From Akkermansiaceae bacterium (lineage in GTDB: Bacteria > Verrucomicrobiota > Verrucomicrobiia > Verrucomicrobiales > Akkermansiaceae), in the NCBI GenBank assembly GCA_029866215.1, contig JARWZU010000011.1:1-64000 (forward strand): DNA of 64,000 bases, read 5' to 3'. The position numbers were made by a program, and so were the translations under genes. Under the pieces are notes generated by a model, which saw only the letters and a list, made by a program, of their open reading frames with translations, searched no databases and was not told the DNA's origin. The first letter of the stretch is position 1. The number at the start of each line of letters is the position of its first letter. Positions 1-30,400 of the stretch are shown here, in pieces.

Positions 1-128
1 CAGAACGGCTCAAGGTCCATGCGAGTTGATGCCAAGGTTCGTACAGAACGGCCCAAGGTGCGTGTAAATGGGCCTCTAGGTTTGCACAAAACGGCACGAG
101 GTATGTGTAAACTCACCCTAGGTGCGTG
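1..128. repeat. Degenerate tandem repeat, ~21.5-bp period (43-bp higher-order unit)
   Basis: Six AGGT-centred units lie at 13, 35, 56, 78, 99 and 120, spaced 22, 21, 22, 21 and 21 bp. Odd-numbered units start with a variant of CAGAACGGCYCAAGGT. Even-numbered units differ from them, so pairs form three 43-bp higher-order copies (1-43, 44-86, 87-128). The array is cut by the window edge, so its full length is unknown. It ends at a small perfect hairpin (ACGCCG, 3-nt loop, CGGCGT) at 138-152. The period is about two helical turns, which would put each unit on the same DNA face. Function is unknown. The sequence stays open in one frame to about 180, so a coding repeat cannot be excluded. Confidence 0.75.
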
Positions 129-461
129 TAAAACCGCACGCCGCCCCGGCGTAAATCAGCTAACTCCAGCCACTTGCGGAAATTGATCTGCCGCCAGCTT
201 TGCAGCTTCCCTCTTCCCTATGGAGCAGCGGAATCCGTCCGCTGTGCCGCTGGAAAGCCGATTGAAGTGGTGAGTTTTGAATCGAAATGCATAGAAGGGG
301 AGGTCGCAGAGAGATCCGGAGAGGTGTTTTGATCCCCAATCTCCAATCCTCAACATCTTGTAAAATATGCCGCTTTTAAGCGCGTAAATCTTCAGATCCG
401 TCGATTTGCACTCAATCATTCACGTGAAGCTGCAATTTTTTCGTTGGCTTGGCCGCACGTT
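129..461. other. Stretch without a convincing gene
   Basis: This lies between the left-edge repeat array and the first accessory gene. It contains the small hairpin at 138-152. The only sizeable open frame (minus strand, 156-419) gives an unconvincing composition and has no recognisable domain. Nothing else is supported. Confidence 0.5.
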
Positions 462-533
462 GATTTACAAAGGTGGAAACTATAAAGTGGGTGGATATCT
501 CCTCCACTTTTGTAGGTAAACAACAAGTTCGAC
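462..533. repeat. Imperfect palindrome, possible degenerate attC-like site
   Basis: The left arm at 462-477 (GATTTACAAAGGTGGA) pairs with the right arm at about 508-526 (TCCACTTTTGTAGGTAAAC), with two extra bases on the right arm and a ~30-nt loop. The right side ends in GTTCGAC at 527-533, 11 bp before the ATG at 538. This matches the spacing between the right end of the two better attC-like sites and the next start codon. The left outer box does not match. Weak call. Confidence 0.3.
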
Positions 534-537
534 ACAA

Positions 538-1245
538 ATGCAATTCCTCACTATGATTGTTTTCGCTTCCGTTGGTGGCCTCGCGCTGGGAGGCGAAATG
601 AACGCTGCTGAACGTGTCACGATACCTCGAACGCTTGAGCACACAGTCACATCCTATGAGAAAAGTAGCACTGGGCCCGAGCATTCTAGATTCAGGTATC
701 CGGATGGACTCTGGGTCGATATTACGCCTCTCAAAGATGCAACGGTTGTCAATTTCTTCGGTGCATACCCATCACTAAGCCTGTTTTCAAACCAAGTTCA
801 CAAGCTGGTCAAGTCAGGCGCATCACCTACTAATGAGAACACACCGCTACTCCCGGGCGCGAACAGTTCACGATACATCTTCGGTCAGGTAGCAAGTCAT
901 TCGAACGCCGGGTTTAAGGGCTTTAGCTACATGGCTCAATATACTCAAGGCCCAGGTGACCACTCACTAAAAAACGAGGACCTTTACTGGACACTCCAAG
1001 GGCTGATTTATTCTTCCGATGGAGAGAAACTTTTCGTAGTAAGAGCAGGAATGTCTGTCTCCCACGAATCGCTTAGGACGAAGCGACCCTACACGGACGG
1101 ATCAACCGAAACATTAAAGGGCGAGAATCAAGCATTAAGCGCTTTGGATACAAAAGGATTTACTCCTTCGATCGAAGGGGCAGTGGCGCGACTTTTAGAG
1201 GTGATCAAACTTGTCGAACAAGCCGGCGCATCCAACGGCGGGTAA
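538..1245 (+). CDS. Exported hypothetical protein, first gene of a putative cassette array
   Basis: A 235-residue protein of no family I recognise. The first ~25 residues are hydrophobic and end near AERV, which looks like a Sec signal peptide, so a periplasmic or outer-membrane location is inferred. The rest is soluble and aromatic-rich with no cysteine pairs. Start: the ATG at 538 puts the signal peptide at the very N-terminus. Its last codons lie inside an attC-like palindrome (1213-1301), as expected of an integron cassette gene whose stop falls in the left half of attC. Codon and base composition look less GC-rich than the housekeeping genes to the right. Probably a mobile cassette gene of unknown role. 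Confidence 0.6.
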   Translation: MQFLTMIVFASVGGLALGGEMNAAERVTIPRTLEHTVTSYEKSSTGPEHSRFRYPDGLWVDITPLKDATVVNFFGAYPSLSLFSNQVHKLVKSGASPTNENTPLLPGANSSRYIFGQVASHSNAGFKGFSYMAQYTQGPGDHSLKNEDLYWTLQGLIYSSDGEKLFVVRAGMSVSHESLRTKRPYTDGSTETLKGENQALSALDTKGFTPSIEGAVARLLEVIKLVEQAGASNGG

Positions 1246-1301
1246 CGTCATTCTTTGAATCCAGACTTCCATTCCCGCCGTGCATGTGCTCATCGTTCTC
1301 C
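1213..1301 (+). repeat. attC-like recombination site 1
   Basis: Imperfect palindrome of 89 bp. Left outer box GTCGAAC, 5-nt spacer AAGCC, then an arm containing GCGCAT and ACGGCGGG. Right side CCCGCCGT, ATGTGC, 5-nt spacer TCATC, outer box GTTCTCC. Both the layout (outer box, unpaired 5-nt spacer, inner box, loop) and the length fit integron attC sites. The outer boxes depart from the usual RYYYAAC/GTTRRRY consensus. Site 2 has the same spacers and nearly the same outer boxes. Confidence 0.6.
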
Positions 1302-1307
1302 AAAGAA

Positions 1308-1682
1308 ATGAAGATCCCACCATACCTCACGCTTCTGCTGACCAGCCTGATTTTCATGTCATGCCAGCCCAAGAGCTCTGAACAAGTGCCTACGCCAGAA
1401 GCCACCTCAGCCTCGAAGAAAATTCCAAGCCCATCCAAAGCGAAGGAGGTGAATCGCTACGAATTTGTCGAGAGTGAGATACTGAGTCATCCTGAAGACG
1501 AGATAGGTTTCAACCATCTTTACATGGGTAGTCTGGATGGCTTCGATTATGTTTCCGTTCGATCCAATAAATACCGGATTCCGAGTGATCAGCTTGAACT
1601 GGAGCGTAGTTTTCCTCTGACCCAAGATGCGGCGAAGTGGATTCACATGCGGATACACTTTTCCCGCGTCAAATATCAATAG
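1308..1682 (+). CDS. Small putative lipoprotein, second cassette gene
   Basis: A 124-residue protein. I start it at the ATG at 1308 (MKIPPYLT...) rather than an in-frame ATG 24 bp upstream, because this gives a typical lipoprotein signal: two N-terminal charges, a hydrophobic stretch LLLTSLIF, then MSC as lipobox with Cys19 or so as the lipidated residue. A Ser/Thr/Pro/Lys-rich linker follows, then a ~75-residue domain with no family I recognise. The start codon is 13 bp after the outer box of attC-like site 1, as in integron cassettes. An attC-like site follows the stop by 2 bp. Function unknown; likely membrane-anchored. Confidence 0.6.
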   Translation: MKIPPYLTLLLTSLIFMSCQPKSSEQVPTPEATSASKKIPSPSKAKEVNRYEFVESEILSHPEDEIGFNHLYMGSLDGFDYVSVRSNKYRIPSDQLELERSFPLTQDAAKWIHMRIHFSRVKYQ

Positions 1683-1684
1683 AT

Positions 1685-1812
1685 GAAGAACAAGCCGCGT
1701 CATGACAGCCACTACTAGCCGCCCTGTTTCGATGGTTTCCCGTAATTACAACACTAACCCCGTGATCGACGTGCGCCGCCGCTGGTAGTGGTGCATGCGC
1801 TCATCGTTCTGC
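1685..1812 (+). repeat. attC-like recombination site 2
   Basis: Imperfect palindrome of 128 bp. Left: GAAGAAC, spacer AAGCC, then GCG(t)CATG(a)CA(g)CCACTAC. Right, read as reverse complement: GCAGAAC, spacer GATGA, then GCGCATGCACCACTACCAGC. The arms pair over more than 17 positions with three extrahelical bases on the left arm only, a hallmark of attC hairpins. Spacers and outer boxes match site 1. It sits between two unrelated same-strand genes. Confidence 0.65.
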
Positions 1813-1818
1813 CAAGAA

Positions 1819-2334
1819 ATGAAGACTTTCGCGATCACCGTCTTCGCGCTCGCACTACTGTCCGGCATCCTAGCTCAAGGAAGCTTGGGACACGCGATTA
1901 TCGTTATGAGCGCGTTTCTCTACATCGGAGGCCCATTGACACTATTTTTGGTTCTCTGGCTCATGATCGGCTTGAAGCGCAGCGGTGGAATACCCCCTGG
2001 ATGGCGCAAGACCTCGACCATCTCAGCGATGATCGGCGGAGGCCTGATCCTATCTTTCGGGACGGGTTCGCTGATTCATTACTGGGAGATTCGCAAGGTG
2101 AGGCAGTTCGTTGAAGCGACTGTTCCTTTCCTCGACGAATATCACCACAAGAACGGCACCTATCCATCGACACTAGAGGAGCTGGGCATTTCATCGATAC
2201 CGAAGGTTCTCCGAGAGTCCGGCGGTTACTCCTCAACCCAGAATACATTCAGATTCGAGTATTGGGATGAGGCAGGGATGATGGATGGCTATGACTTCAG
2301 CAGCTCAACACGTGAATGGATCTACTTCGACTAA
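1819..2334 (+). CDS. Membrane protein with pseudopilin-like C-terminal motif, third cassette gene
   Basis: A 171-residue protein started at ATG 1819, 13 bp after the outer box of attC-like site 2; an ATG 24 bp upstream lies inside that site. Three hydrophobic segments (about residues 5-20, 25-50 and 65-85) are followed by a soluble C-terminal domain. That domain carries a Y-x5-GTYP-x2-LEEL motif, resembling the segment that follows the helix in GspG-type pseudopilins and related small domains; this resemblance is inference from motif only. The leader is almost identical to that of the gene before it (14 bp around the start codon). The stop is followed within ~20 bp by IS30-type sequence, so any attC after this gene is lost. 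Confidence 0.6.
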   Translation: MKTFAITVFALALLSGILAQGSLGHAIIVMSAFLYIGGPLTLFLVLWLMIGLKRSGGIPPGWRKTSTISAMIGGGLILSFGTGSLIHYWEIRKVRQFVEATVPFLDEYHHKNGTYPSTLEELGISSIPKVLRESGGYSSTQNTFRFEYWDEAGMMDGYDFSSSTREWIYFD

Positions 2335-2350
2335 TAAAAGACGAATAGTT

Positions 2351-2890
2351 TCAAGGTTGAAGTGCGACAACAGGTAATTGATAGTATATCTCGTTCGGAG
2401 TCTTGAATCCGAGGCGTTTCCTGGGTCGATTGTTGAGTGTTTTGGTAATTCGGGTGCATGTAGACTGCGCCAGATCATCAAGCGGCATTCCCTTTGGTAG
2501 ATATTGTCTGATTAAGCCATTGGTGTTCTCGTTGGTCCCTCGTTCCTATGCGTGATGGGGTAATGCAAAGTAGATATTCGTTTCCAAGGCCTTCTCTATC
2601 CGGCGGTATCTATGTAATTCGCCGCCATTGTCAGAGGTGATGGTTTTGGTTCGATCTTTTTCCCTTTTAAGCAATTTGATGGTCCGCTTCTCGGTCTGCT
2701 CCTTGATAATCCGCTTGAGCTTTCCAATGCGAACGAGGCCACTACACCTCTCCACAATGGTGAGTATTCCGGCCTTTGTCGTCCCGTGGACCGTATCGAT
2801 CTCCCAGTCACCGATCCGTGAGCGCCGTTCGACCACGGCAGGCCGTTCACCAATCATTTTCTTGGCTGCGAGGCAACAAGCGGCGCGCAT
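2351..2890 (-). pseudogene. IS30-family transposase remnant with internal amber codon
   Basis: The minus-strand frame contains the IS30 core: GDWEIDTVHG (first catalytic Asp), TSDNGGE (second Asp). After an in-frame TAG at 2546-2548 the same frame continues with ERGTNENTNG (catalytic Glu region) and IRQYLPKGM, through to a TGA at 2351. In IS30 proteins a Trp codon normally stands where the TAG is, so a TGG-to-TAG nonsense change is inferred. The N-terminal half (HTH region, roughly 190 residues) is missing: similarity stops near 2880, just before an unrelated gene. No right-hand inverted repeat was found. The element is dead. Confidence 0.85.
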
Positions 2891-2949
2891 TGGGGGGCTG
2901 AATGTGCTCGACTTGAATCCATTGGGTGGGTTTTCATTTCATCACCGAT

Positions 2950-3609
2950 ATGAGCAAAGAGAAAGCAAGTCCCGCCGATGATTCCGCCGCCCCTGCGAAG
3001 GGTGCCTCCCCTCGTGCCCGCAAGGTGGCAACGCCGCGGCCGAAAAAAGTGGCAAAGGTGGAAGCTGCTGCAGATGTGGTCCCTGAGCCAGCGAGCATTC
3101 CATTTCCGCCAGCGCCGAAGCGTCGGGTTGAGCCGGCGAGTGAGTCTGCCCCGAGTCAGACGGAAGCGAGCGCGTCAGCGAGTCCAAGTGACTGGCCTGA
3201 GCCCGAGGCGGAGTCGGCAGGCGGTGCGTCTTCGACGTCCGAGGGTGGCAAACGGAAACGCCGCCGCCGCAAGGGCAAGGGGCAGTCGGGTGGCGCGCCG
3301 AACCAAGCAAGCGCGGCTCATGGTGAGGGATCTTCGGCGGCAGTCGCATTGCCCGTGGAGGTCAAATCGGCCGAGTCGGGCCAAGAGCAACGCCAGCGCC
3401 CGGCACCGCAGCAGGTGGCCCAGCAGCCTTCGCCGCATCGTCCCAAGATTGACCCTGAGTTGCTGACCAAGATGGCTTGGAAAATTTATTTGGCAGAGAT
3501 CGGCGAGGAGGGGGTTGCGTTGATTGGTGACAACGATGCCAAGGAACTCTCGCGACGTTGCTACCGGCTGGCCGAGATTTTCATCGAAGAACAGTCGCGC
3601 AGGCGTTGA
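2950..3609 (+). CDS. Low-complexity Ala/Pro/Ser-rich basic protein
   Basis: A 219-residue protein, started at ATG 2950 (MSKEKAS...) rather than an upstream in-frame start. Residues ~1-155 are disordered and Ala/Pro/Ser/Glu-rich, with Lys/Arg clusters including KRKRRRRKGKG near residue 105, suggesting nucleic-acid contact. The C-terminal ~60 residues look folded and helical, with KIDPELLTKMAWKIYLAEI and a basic tail. I do not recognise a named family. It opens the stable chromosomal block right after the IS30 remnant, so it may mark the right border of the accessory patch. It has its own frame and strand continuity with the genes that follow, but a 66-bp gap separates them. Confidence 0.6.
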   Translation: MSKEKASPADDSAAPAKGASPRARKVATPRPKKVAKVEAAADVVPEPASIPFPPAPKRRVEPASESAPSQTEASASASPSDWPEPEAESAGGASSTSEGGKRKRRRRKGKGQSGGAPNQASAAHGEGSSAAVALPVEVKSAESGQEQRQRPAPQQVAQQPSPHRPKIDPELLTKMAWKIYLAEIGEEGVALIGDNDAKELSRRCYRLAEIFIEEQSRRR

Positions 3610-3675: not shown

Positions 3676-5184
3676 ATGAATCGTAGGGCCAGAAGACACA
3701 AGAAGTCGGGTGGAAACCGTTGGCTTGGTAGGGGATTTGCGTGGTTCGTGGTGCTCTCACTGGTTCTATTAGGTGTAGGCTATGGGATGCTGCGGAGCTA
3801 TTTGCGGAGTGATGCGTTCCGGCAATTTTTATCGGCAGAAGTTAGTAAAACTGCGGGGGTGAGTGGCGAATTCGCGCCATTTCGTTGGGATGGATTGGCG
3901 GTCGATACCGATGGGTTTGAAGCGAAGGGTGCGGGTTGGGTCACGGCGTTGCGTGCGGATGATTTGCGAACCGAGGTGGGTTTGGGTGAGGTGCGGAGAG
4001 GCGTCTGGCAGATTCGGGAATCGAGCGTCCGTCAGTTGGAGCTGGCCATTGACGCGAGGAAATCCATGGCAATTGAGGGAAAGCCGGTGATGCCAAATCT
4101 GTTTGGCGCGCCACCGGTAAAGCGTTCCCCATGGCTGCCCAGTGAAGTCGAACTTCAGGGGATCAATGTCGGGAAATTGGTGGTTCGTGCGGCCCTCGAT
4201 GCGGGCGTGGCGACTGTGGCTGGTGTGGAGTTGCGAGTCACCCAAGCCGGTGCGAAGCATGCGTATCGCGCGCAAGCCATGGGTGGCACGATTCGGTTGC
4301 CTTTTGAAAAGGCCCCAGAGTTATCATTGGACCAAGTTCGGCTGAGTTATCAGGACCAACAAGTTTTCCTAACCGATTTAACCATGGGAGTCTGGGGTTC
4401 TGGGCGGATCCAGTCGAGCGGCGAGTGGGACATGGAAGCGGAAAAATTTTCCATGCAGGGAGACATCACTGGGATCAAGTGTGAGAATTTATTGAATGAG
4501 AACTGGGCCAAGCGGTTGTCTGGCGACGTGCGTTCCAATTTTATCGTCGATCAGCGCGGAGGTCGTGCGGGGGGGATGCGTGCGAGTGGTCATCTGGTGG
4601 TTCAGAATGGGGTGCTGACGGCCCTGCCGATCCTTGATGCCATGGCGGCTTATGCCGATACGCGGCGGTTCAGAGTTCTTACCCTGAGTGACGCTCAAAC
4701 CGACTGGCAGTGGCAAAAGGATGAGCTCAAACTCACCAAGCTCGTGATTGCAAGTGAAGGGCTGGTGCGGCTGGAGGGGGGGATTCAAATCCGCGGGAAC
4801 CAACTGGATGGATCATTTCGGCTGGGGATTGCACCTGGCACGCTTGCGACCATTCCCGGGGCGGAATCCGAGGTCTTCGTGCCGGGAGAGCGTGGGCTTT
4901 TGTGGACCTCGCTTCGCATCACTGGCACCGTGGACAACCCCAAGGAGGACCTGACCGACCGACTCGTCGCCGCGGCAGGCATCCGGATGTTTGAGCAATT
5001 ACCCAAGAGCGGAGAAAAAGTGATCAAATTTGCCCAGTCCATCCTCGGCGGGTCCTCGCCAACAGCGGGCGAAGACAGTGCCGAGGCGAATGAGCAAAGC
5101 GAAAAGGTTATTAAGGAGGTAAATGGTTTACTCCAAGGGTTGCTCGATGGAGGCCTGCGCAAGCGGCAGAAGGAGGAGCCATGA
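3676..5184 (+). CDS. AsmA-like single-span membrane protein
   Basis: A 502-residue protein with a very basic N-terminus (MNRRARRHKK), one transmembrane segment at about residues 20-40, and a long beta-rich extracytoplasmic part. The layout resembles the AsmA/DUF3971 group, whose members help lipid or outer-membrane protein assembly in Gram-negative envelopes. The C-terminus (about 450-502) is acidic then helical. The assignment rests on layout and on repeated short beta motifs such as GSGRIQSSGEWDME, not on a catalytic motif. Its stop overlaps the next start by 4 bp (ATGA), so it is probably translationally coupled to the GT2 glycosyltransferase and may share an envelope role. Confidence 0.55.
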   Translation: MNRRARRHKKSGGNRWLGRGFAWFVVLSLVLLGVGYGMLRSYLRSDAFRQFLSAEVSKTAGVSGEFAPFRWDGLAVDTDGFEAKGAGWVTALRADDLRTEVGLGEVRRGVWQIRESSVRQLELAIDARKSMAIEGKPVMPNLFGAPPVKRSPWLPSEVELQGINVGKLVVRAALDAGVATVAGVELRVTQAGAKHAYRAQAMGGTIRLPFEKAPELSLDQVRLSYQDQQVFLTDLTMGVWGSGRIQSSGEWDMEAEKFSMQGDITGIKCENLLNENWAKRLSGDVRSNFIVDQRGGRAGGMRASGHLVVQNGVLTALPILDAMAAYADTRRFRVLTLSDAQTDWQWQKDELKLTKLVIASEGLVRLEGGIQIRGNQLDGSFRLGIAPGTLATIPGAESEVFVPGERGLLWTSLRITGTVDNPKEDLTDRLVAAAGIRMFEQLPKSGEKVIKFAQSILGGSSPTAGEDSAEANEQSEKVIKEVNGLLQGLLDGGLRKRQKEEP

Positions 5185-8057: not shown

Positions 8058-11000
8058 ATCTTCCGCGTCCCGACAGGCCAATGGGTTCACCTTGCCGGCG
8101 ATCCTCGTGGTCGTGGGTGCTCTGTTGATTCTCGCCGTCGGGATTCTGATCGTGGTCGGAATTGAAAGGAACACTGCGCGTGCCTTTGCCGATCGCCAAC
8201 GGGCTGGACTCGCTGCCATCGCGGGTCTCAACGAGGTCCGCGGCATCCTCACCACTGAGGCCGCCAATGACGATTTTTTGGTTTTGCAAGATCCCGGTAC
8301 CGCAGCTGTGGGAGCGACCAAAACCCCAAGCCCCTACCTCTACCTCGCGCGGGGCTCAGGCGGAGGGAATGCGGTGAGTTATCGCTACGTGCCGATGTTT
8401 AGCACGGAGAGCCTCCCTGCAAAACCCGCTGCAGGAAGCCCACTCAAGGCTCCGGATTCCAGCTCGCTCATCGGAGCCGCTCCCAAACAACTCGACACGC
8501 TGCCATGGTTTGATTCCACCAAGGTGAGTTGGGTCAACATCAAGGACTCGGCAGGCAAGGTGGTTTCGCGTTACGCCTACTGGGTTGAGGACTTGCAAGG
8601 GCGCGTCGATGCAGGAACTGCGGGTAACATGAAGGATACCGGTGGGGCTCACAAACGCTACGGCTGGAAAGCGGGGGATACGTCAACGTCCGCAAAATTT
8701 CCAGCCCCAGGGTTAAACGCAGAGGAATCGAAGGTTGGCACCAATGGAAGGGATGCTGAGCCACCCTTAGATCAAATTGCACTTTATGCGTTGGATCCGA
8801 CTGTCACCGTCACCGACAACTCGAGCCTCGACAAGACGATCATCGAGGGGCGCAAGTTGCTCGTTTCTCCGGACTCTACGCTCGCCGCTGCGGGGATCGT
8901 CCCGCCACTGACTCGCGGTGCCGATGGGCGTCTCGTATCGCAACTTGCACGCTCGGTCGAAGAAAACCTAACGGCATCGGTCATGCCCTACGATGAGCAG
9001 CCGCTTGTGCCGTTCGCAAAGGGGATCGATGCTTCCGTCACGGGTAAGCCCAAAGTAAATTTGAATGCCTTGTTGGCGAAGCCAGCGGCAAACGCGGTCG
9101 ATGAAATGGCGGCCTGGATGAATGCAGGTCTGCCTGACTTCGAGAGCCGAAAAGGTGGATTTCCAGACAACTACTTGAAAACACTCGCGGCCAACGCAAT
9201 TGATTATGCGGACGCGGACACTGAGCCTACTGTCAGCTCCCCCTCGATCATGGGTGGGAATGCCTACCGGGGACTCGATGCCTATCCTTTGATAAGCGAG
9301 GTGATTTTGCACATCAAATATCTTGGGAAGACCGTTAGAAACAACAGGAATGTTCTCCTGTGGCAGATGATTCAGTTCGTCGAACTCTGGAATCACACGA
9401 ACGTCCGAGTCACGGGAAATGCCAGGGTTTCCTATGAAAATGGGTTGAGGCTTTCTAATATCGGAAGTGGCATAGAGGGCATTCGCTTCGACGATCCCTC
9501 ACTGATGGCTTCTGTTACGCCAGCTCTCTCCAACGTGGGTGGCCGCTACTGGTCCGCGGCGATTCCCTGCGATTTGCAACCGAACCAATACAAGTTCTAT
9601 AAGGCGCTCACTGGTAATTATACAATGGATGCGGGGCCTTCGTCACTAAGGCTCCAAAGCCAATTTTCGATCGAAGAACCCCTGGGGGCTTCGGCGATCA
9701 GCATGATGTGGAACAATAAAGAAGTCGATCGCACTGATAAGCTGCTTAGGGAGACCACAGATATTACCACGAACACACCAAGGCAAGCGGGGAAGGCGAA
9801 TATTCCAGGGCACAGCTACGGAATCTATAATACAAACAATAACTATAAAAATAACATGGGGGATTCGAGGCAGGCCCTCTATTTGCGTGAGGCCTCGTAT
9901 CCACTCTCGAGTAATTCCTATCCCAGTAACATCAGTCCGAATCGGAGAAATATTCGAAATTTTACCATCTATAAGAATGGCTCTGGGCAATCCAGCGTTT
10001 ACGGACGGGTGCTTCCATCGGAATGGCCAGATGGGGGGCATGATGTCGCAGTCAGTGTATGGTCGCCGCTTTCGCCAGTATTGGATAACTATGATCCTAC
10101 GACTTTATATTCCGATGTGACCCCTGGGGTGGAAGGCGATACCCCTACTTTCCTCTCAAACCGAGGTCGCTTTTACAGTGCCACCGAGCTCGGTCGAGTC
10201 TTCGATCCGATCATGTTTCTCCCGACCTACGACAGTGCTTCGGATTCAAGCACGCTGCTCACGGGTACTATGCCATCCAGCCGTGTTTCTTGGCCTTCGG
10301 TCGAAGTGAGCAATGCTGCTTCGACCTTCTACGGCGGTGGTAATACGCTGCGGATCGGTCGGCCCGAGCATCCAAATTTTGATCAGCCCGCGAGGCATGC
10401 TCCGGCAAGCATGCCAGGAACCCACGCAGCTCGATTGCTGGATCTTTTTCATGCGGGGAAGTCGCGTTCAGGGGTAAGTGCGGATCGTGAGGGGGCGGTT
10501 GTCAGAATTGAGGGTCATATCAACATCAACACTGCCTCCACGGATACCCTCCGAGCGATGGCCGTAGGCCTACTCGCATCCGATCCTAGGCTGGCGAGAA
10601 GAACTTCCGAGACCCATTCATCGACCACCTTCGCACCACCCACCACGTCTGTATCGCTTTCGGCACCCACGTTGACCAAGGAAGCGGATGTGGTGGCCAA
10701 AGCCATCGAGGGAGGACGGCCATTTGTATCACCTTCGGAACTCGCCTCGGTGTTGAATCCTGATGGGAAATTGGTTTTTGGGAATCCGTTTCTCTATCCG
10801 ACTTATACGAGTAGTGGCACTCCGAATATCACCCGGCTTCAGTGGTCGGATGCTGCTGCAGAAGAGTTGTTTGGGCGCGTTTTTGAGTCATCGACAGTTC
10901 GATCGCGCAATTTTAGAGTTTGGGTCATTGGCCAAGCGGTTGCACCGACCTTAGCGACTACCACGACGCCCGAAATCCTAGGAGAAATTCGCAAGTCCTA

Positions 11001-29794: not shown

Positions 29795-30280
29795 ATGTCA
29801 TCCGATCCATTGCTCCAACTTCTTCGTCGTAAGGCTCGTTTCACGAACCAAGAACTCGCAGATCTGCTGAGTCTGGAGCCCGCCATGGTGGCAGGACTCA
29901 TCGCTGGCTGGGAAGCGGATGGCACGATTTTGGGTCATCACGCGGTGATCAATCCAGAGGCGATCGGTGACACCACGGTTTCTGCATTCATCGAGGTGAA
30001 GGTCACGCCCGAGCGCGGGGGTGGATTTGACCGACTTGCCATGCGGATTGCTCGATTTAATCAGGTCGTTTCCTGTTATCTTGCGAGCGGCGGCTACGAT
30101 CTCATGGTGGTGGTGGAAGGTGGCGACCTCCGCGAGGTGGCACGCTTCGTCTCGGAAAAACTGAGCTCGCTCGATGGGGTGATCTCCACTGCCACTCACT
30201 TCCGGCTCAAGACCTACAAGGAAAATGGATTTTTGTTTGAGCGAGAAATCAGCTCAGAGCGTTTGGCGGTTACGCCCTAA
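29795..30280 (+). CDS. Lrp/AsnC family regulator
   Basis: A 161-residue protein started at ATG 29795 (MSSDPLLQLLRRKARF). The N-terminal helix-turn-helix (about 10-50: FTNQELADLLSLEPAMVAGLI) is followed by the RAM ligand-binding domain (about 65-140: TVSAFIEVKVTPE, ASGGYDLMVVVEG). The extension near the C-terminus reads FRLKTYKENGFLFE. It is likely a homo-oligomeric transcription factor responding to an amino acid. No target site is obvious nearby. The frame's longer start upstream would overlap nothing but adds an unrelated prefix. Confidence 0.8.
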   Translation: MSSDPLLQLLRRKARFTNQELADLLSLEPAMVAGLIAGWEADGTILGHHAVINPEAIGDTTVSAFIEVKVTPERGGGFDRLAMRIARFNQVVSCYLASGGYDLMVVVEGGDLREVARFVSEKLSSLDGVISTATHFRLKTYKENGFLFEREISSERLAVTP

Positions 30281-30400
30281 AGTCCTAGAGCACGCAACCG
30301 TAGCCGCGGGAGCACACGTCGATCGCGGGGTTCAGTTCGAACCTACGGAACGCTAAAATGCATGTGCGCTGGGGGGGATGCGCGTTACGGGGGGAAATGC

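Follow-up and report, generated by a model that had tools for sequence, protein, structure and literature searches.

Clusters of attC sites lacking an integron integrase (CALINs) are common, and the route by which such a cluster arose is usually guessed. CALINs have been described as integrons in a state of partial degradation, mobilizable in trans, and deletion of the integrase gene, intI, has been documented in Xanthomonas (PMC9024848, PMC8618304, PMC12444791, PMC9668308), with intI loss proposed as one of several routes to a CALIN (PMC8618304, PMC12444791). Integrons are known in Verrucomicrobiota, as in other phyla (PMC8618304).

The window, the whole 64,000-nucleotide stretch analyzed here (1-64000), is part of the 146-kb contig C38, with its left edge at the contig end, in a draft genome of 3.03 Mb and 88 contigs. 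A first-pass annotation had described a possible integron cassette array near this edge without an integrase in view; its attC sites were confirmed, and intI is absent beside them. With a probability of about 0.92, the 5′ end of the window is the proximal part of a chromosomal integron platform that has had its own intI deleted, in which attI, two complete cassettes, and an IS-truncated third remain. The features are given below, where C86 and similar labels denote other contigs of the genome.

1-352, no strand assigned: platform flank, lying 3′ of intI in the intact C86 copy (window 1-358 aligns 87% to C86:11566-11914)
345-358, no strand assigned: deletion junction (flanked by two collinear 87% alignments; C86:11915-12978 absent)
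353-533, plus strand: attI without its integrase (87% to C86:12979-13165; crossover G527/T528, AACAA-G/TTCGAC)
528-1295, plus strand: gene cassette 1 (ORF 538-1245, 235 aa, without Pfam match; end boxes 7/7)
1213-1301, plus strand: attC1 (89 bp; 29.1 bits, E 2.9e-6, under a model that excluded attC1 from training)
1296-1806, plus strand: gene cassette 2 (ORF 1308-1682 intact, 124 aa, lipoprotein-like N-terminus MSC; end boxes 6/7)
1685-1812, plus strand: attC2 (128 bp; 86.2 bits, E 4.6e-24, with a model not trained on attC2)
1807-2339, plus strand: gene cassette 3, truncated (ORF 1819-2334 intact; own attC missing)
2340-2890, minus strand: IS remnant, IS30-like with an rve domain, terminating the array (PF00665, E 8.8e-6 for 2546-2890)

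attC and attI sites of the window

Both palindromes have the anatomy of attC sites. The boxes of attC1 are GTCGAAC (1213-1219) and GTTCTCC (1295-1301), with the spacers AAGCC and TCATC, and those of attC2 are GAAGAAC (1685-1691) and GTTCTGC (1806-1812), again with AAGCC and TCATC; at each site, an ATG (1308 and 1819) lies 13 bp past the G of GTT. The boxes, spacers, and start-codon distances claimed in the first-pass annotation were all found where it had placed them. Each site is an imperfect inverted repeat running from an inverse core, xxxxAAC, to a core, GTTxxxx, and the lengths of 89 and 128 bp fall within the ~57-141 bp of attC sites. The window sites have the AAC and GTT triplets, as do nearly all other sites of the genome; the canonical core is GTTRRRY (PMC3053210), and strict RYYYAAC / GTTRRRY is unmatched. 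The departure at the fourth base of the core is genome-wide, the outer bases being mostly GTTC..., and since the remaining attC features all hold, this departure is taken to be a variant of the lineage, as the earlier suggestion of lineage-specific outer boxes had anticipated.

The complementarity of the arms was reached by shuffled arms in 6 of 2000 cases for attC1 and in none of 2000 for attC2, and the mean complementarity of a site with its own arm was 11.8, compared to 6.7 for arms combined across different sites. The DNA folding energies of the two palindromes (z = -1.9 and -0.7) are not distinctive alone, and this weakness counts against the main reading. RNAalifold gave zero consensus pairs on the attC alignment because MAFFT loses the register of the right arms, and the attC model was therefore sequence-only, built from 21 clear attC sites on other contigs with the window sites excluded. 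Across the 3.03-Mb genome, this model gave 38 matches at E < 1e-4 on 12 contigs, 17 of them outside the training set, including both window sites, so that the further copies named in advance as support for the array are present. The right-arm motif, TGCATGNGCTCATCGTTCT, has seven close genomic copies (0-2 mismatches), two in the window and five elsewhere with 1-2 mismatches each (C13, C39 twice, C59, and C19); a backwards control pattern of the motif had no match in the genome. The identity of attC2 to the attC at C39:10172-10298 is 93%, which exceeds the 87% of the window attI to its nearest copy. Related attC sites elsewhere in the genome are arranged in tandem, on the same strand, and adjoining intI. 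An Rfam scan of window positions 1-3000 returned no match, and no attC match was found between 1812 and 30280 of the window. An isolated partial attC-like right arm on the minus strand at 30280-30357, a long way from the array (25.5 bits over positions 46-121 of the model), is probably the relic of an old cassette insertion.

The attI comprises ~150 bp conserved across six copies and ends in the crossover core AACAAGTT. With the window copy left out of its construction, an attI model matched window positions 378-529 (E 6.7e-23) and found exactly four sites in the genome, on C3, C48, and C86 and in the window; among 58 relatives, its matches were two strong single copies and a weak third. The window thus retains the attI of a complete integron. 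Insertion at an off-target site (attG) is ruled out, as attI is present. Transcription of the cassettes would start at a promoter within or close to attI, and a search for a sigma-70-like promoter 5′ of cassette 1 gave a single weak match (529-557), fewer than the 2.9 expected from shuffled sequence of this region; the lack of a prominent promoter here is a further point against the main reading.

Cassette boundaries and cargo

In an integron array, the core box on the right side of an attC is part of the next cassette. If mobilization proceeds through circles that are cut between G and TT, the start box of a cassette would be expected to complement the inverse core in that cassette's attC. 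Each cassette of the window would have entered as such a circle: an integron integrase would have joined attI to attC, the latter as a folded bottom strand, by exchange between the G and the TT, and integration would leave the cassette's own half-boxes at both of its ends. In six arrays, the end boxes were fully complementary in 23 of 24 cassettes, compared with at most 11 of 24 in any of 100,000 shuffles, and the boxes adjacent in the array matched fully in 3 of 24. The window's GTTCGAC (527-533) is complementary at all seven positions to GTCGAAC (1213-1219), which shows, on sequence grounds, that cassette 1 entered at the window attI by site-specific recombination. The outer boxes had looked mismatched to the earlier reader because the box on the right is the start of the following cassette; each inverse core pairs instead with the start box of its own cassette. 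Complementary end boxes, both in the 23 of 24 cassettes and in cassette 1 itself, indicate that the window array is one built by an integrase in the normal way. The single mismatch in the end boxes of cassette 2 speaks against the main reading and is compatible with slow decay.

These results also bear on whether the palindromes are ordinary intergenic terminators or interspersed palindromes rather than attC sites. They do sit between short genes, and their folding z-scores are modest, but the conserved attC box order, the same-strand arrays adjoining intI, and the box complementarity rule together with attI all oppose this explanation, which the attI alignment and the box rule refute and which has a negligible probability.

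A Pfam search of the three cassette reading frames (538-1245, 1308-1682, and 1819-2334) found no family, and the encoded proteins are absent from the 58 relatives, except for weak matches of 26-29% to cassette 3 in two of them. Absence from relatives is usual for cassette genes. Conservation of the three genes together had been named in the first-pass annotation as evidence that would tell against an array, and in the 58 relatives, they form no conserved block. Cassette 3 lost its attC beside the rve-domain IS remnant, of which no full copy was found in the genome.

The missing integrase and integrases elsewhere

The integron on C86 has the attI type and flank found in the window (87%), an attC family common to both, and an array longer than that of the window. 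Window positions 353-540 align 87% to C86:12979-13165, directly 5′ of the C86 intI, and the 1,064 bp absent from the window by comparison include the whole of intI and a strong palindrome preceding it. The functional intI that lies beside attI in a complete integron is therefore lacking in the window, having been deleted relative to C86, and its alignment marks the window platform as paralogous to the complete C86 integron. The first-pass annotation was right that no integrase adjoins the array, but the cause is deletion from the platform and not the contig end alone.

The contig end lies 0.35 kb to the left of the deletion junction, and this, together with the 88-contig draft, counts against the main reading; it also raises the question of whether a misjoin of two repeats removed intI from the window in assembly. 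The contig end at position 1, the short CAAATCT repeats by the junction, and the draft state of the genome are what such a misjoin would have in its favor. The divergence from C86, however, is equal on both sides of the gap (87%), as expected of one paralogous locus, which is therefore favored over a chimeric contig, and the genome has only four such attI sites, without a matching spare intI. A misjoin is accordingly very unlikely.

Two sequence elements flank intI in the related platforms. Directly 5′ of intI, a strong palindrome, GCAGATTTACGCGC...GCGCGTAAATCTGC, occurs on C86 (L022 12913-12962); the corresponding place on C3 (L034) and C48 (L030) has a different sequence that is also in part palindromic, AATAACATG...CATGTTATT. 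The pre-intI palindrome is possibly an operator for intI. On the 3′ side, intI is adjoined by degenerate tandem repeat units like CAAGGTGCGTGTAAAAC (window 1-170; L022 11440-11690), and repeats of this kind likely caused the contig break.

A search for intI beyond the array had been proposed, and two intact genes were found, both on other contigs. They encode full-length integron integrases by TIGR02249, with 396 bits for C86 and 331 bits for C84 against the curated cut-off of 265 bits. The C86 IntI aligns along the length of the solved Vibrio cholerae integrase 2A3V (268 bits), the Arg, HxxR, GH, and Tyr motifs included, and its gene has a dN/dS of 0.055-0.068 against three relatives. The tyrosine-recombinase motifs in this alignment and the low dN/dS make the C86 IntI very likely functional. 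The nearest named integrases, at 85-88% amino-acid identity, are in genomes labeled Verrucomicrobiaceae bacterium and Prosthecobacter debontii and in a MAG labeled Akkermansia sp., which identifies the host as verrucomicrobial. The C84 integrase (L021 2151-3083) is of a different type; its attI differs too, and it is accompanied by a separate array of at least five attC sites, inside which the contig ends.

Among 59 genomes of the genus and order, with the window's genome counted, 37 have integron integrases, 29 of them above the cut-off; integrons are therefore common in the lineage. An AsmA-like gene at 3676-5184 of the window is present in 56 of the 59 genomes, and in one relative, G030, an attC array lies just upstream of the same gene, as in the window. 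In 15 other relatives, several of whose contigs have little upstream sequence, no array was found there. The array position may be common by descent to the window genome and G030, but the region upstream of this gene is generally variable. Within the G030 cassette array, the 25-nt sequence ACAACTTCCCAGACAAAAAGAAGCG occurs four times (L119 2454, 3815, 4526, and 5176, minus strand), apparently in place of attC parts; among the other fetched loci, it was found only in L097, an overlapping piece of that contig.

Orphan platforms and comparison with known integrons

Of the four attI copies of one type, the C86 copy has an intact intI, and the other three, in the window and on C3 and C48, do not. 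The platforms on C3 (L034 ~1404-1800) and C48 (L030 ~9280-9643) consist of attI and an intI cut back to its initial 35 to about 50 codons, and they are 88% identical over 382 bp. Both have a TAG stop at one intI codon where intact relatives have AGG, AGA, or AAA, and their first cassettes, compared by eye, encode unrelated proteins, each joined to attI through boxes that match at every position. Most simply, a platform already lacking intI would have been duplicated and would then have received cassettes by way of an integrase from elsewhere, probably that of C86. The one common stop together with the different first cassettes suggests, short of proof, that C86 acts in trans.

Whether the orphan attI sites of the window, C3, and C48 are still landing pads on which the C86 integrase may act in trans is evenly balanced. 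The one attI type at all four sites, the intact and constrained C86 IntI, and the common stop of C3 and C48 with differing first cassettes argue for it; on the other side, the common stop may be convergent, or the platforms may have been acquired from different strains. The odds that the C86 integrase could still insert or excise cassettes at the window array in trans are likewise about even. That this single integrase would serve all three orphan sites, with intI-less platforms copied around the genome and the attI platforms being satellites of one master integron, is a tentative and rather doubtful proposal.

Only a little short of even is the probability that the window array is a dead fossil, its cassettes inserted while the platform had its own intI and frozen since the deletion. 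The 13% divergence of the window attI from C86, the mismatch in the cassette 2 boxes, and the IS remnant truncating cassette 3 are consistent with this, but the window attI core and the cassette reading frames are intact, and the common intI stop of C3 and C48, with unrelated first cassettes and perfect attI junctions, suggests insertion after intI loss.

Like a CALIN under the IntegronFinder definition, the window has at least two attC sites and no adjacent intI, but it differs in that the attI and intI flank is retained, and the origin by intI deletion can therefore be read directly. With an intact parent-type integron and an intI-deleted copy that kept its attI in one genome, a route to a CALIN becomes readable from sequence, in a phylum known for integrons yet seldom studied for them. 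In Xanthomonas integrons whose intI was deleted or broken by stop codons, the platform and cassettes were kept (PMC12444791), as in the window. The Xanthomonas platform, however, is at a single locus (ilvD), whereas this genome has four attI sites of one type on separate contigs, one with an intact integrase. A limited literature search found no description of a genome with four attI sites of one type and intI kept at only one. The window array itself is a CALIN or relic integron, of a kind already known, and the interesting part is the arrangement of several attI sites, a natural system for asking whether one integrase feeds several attI in trans.
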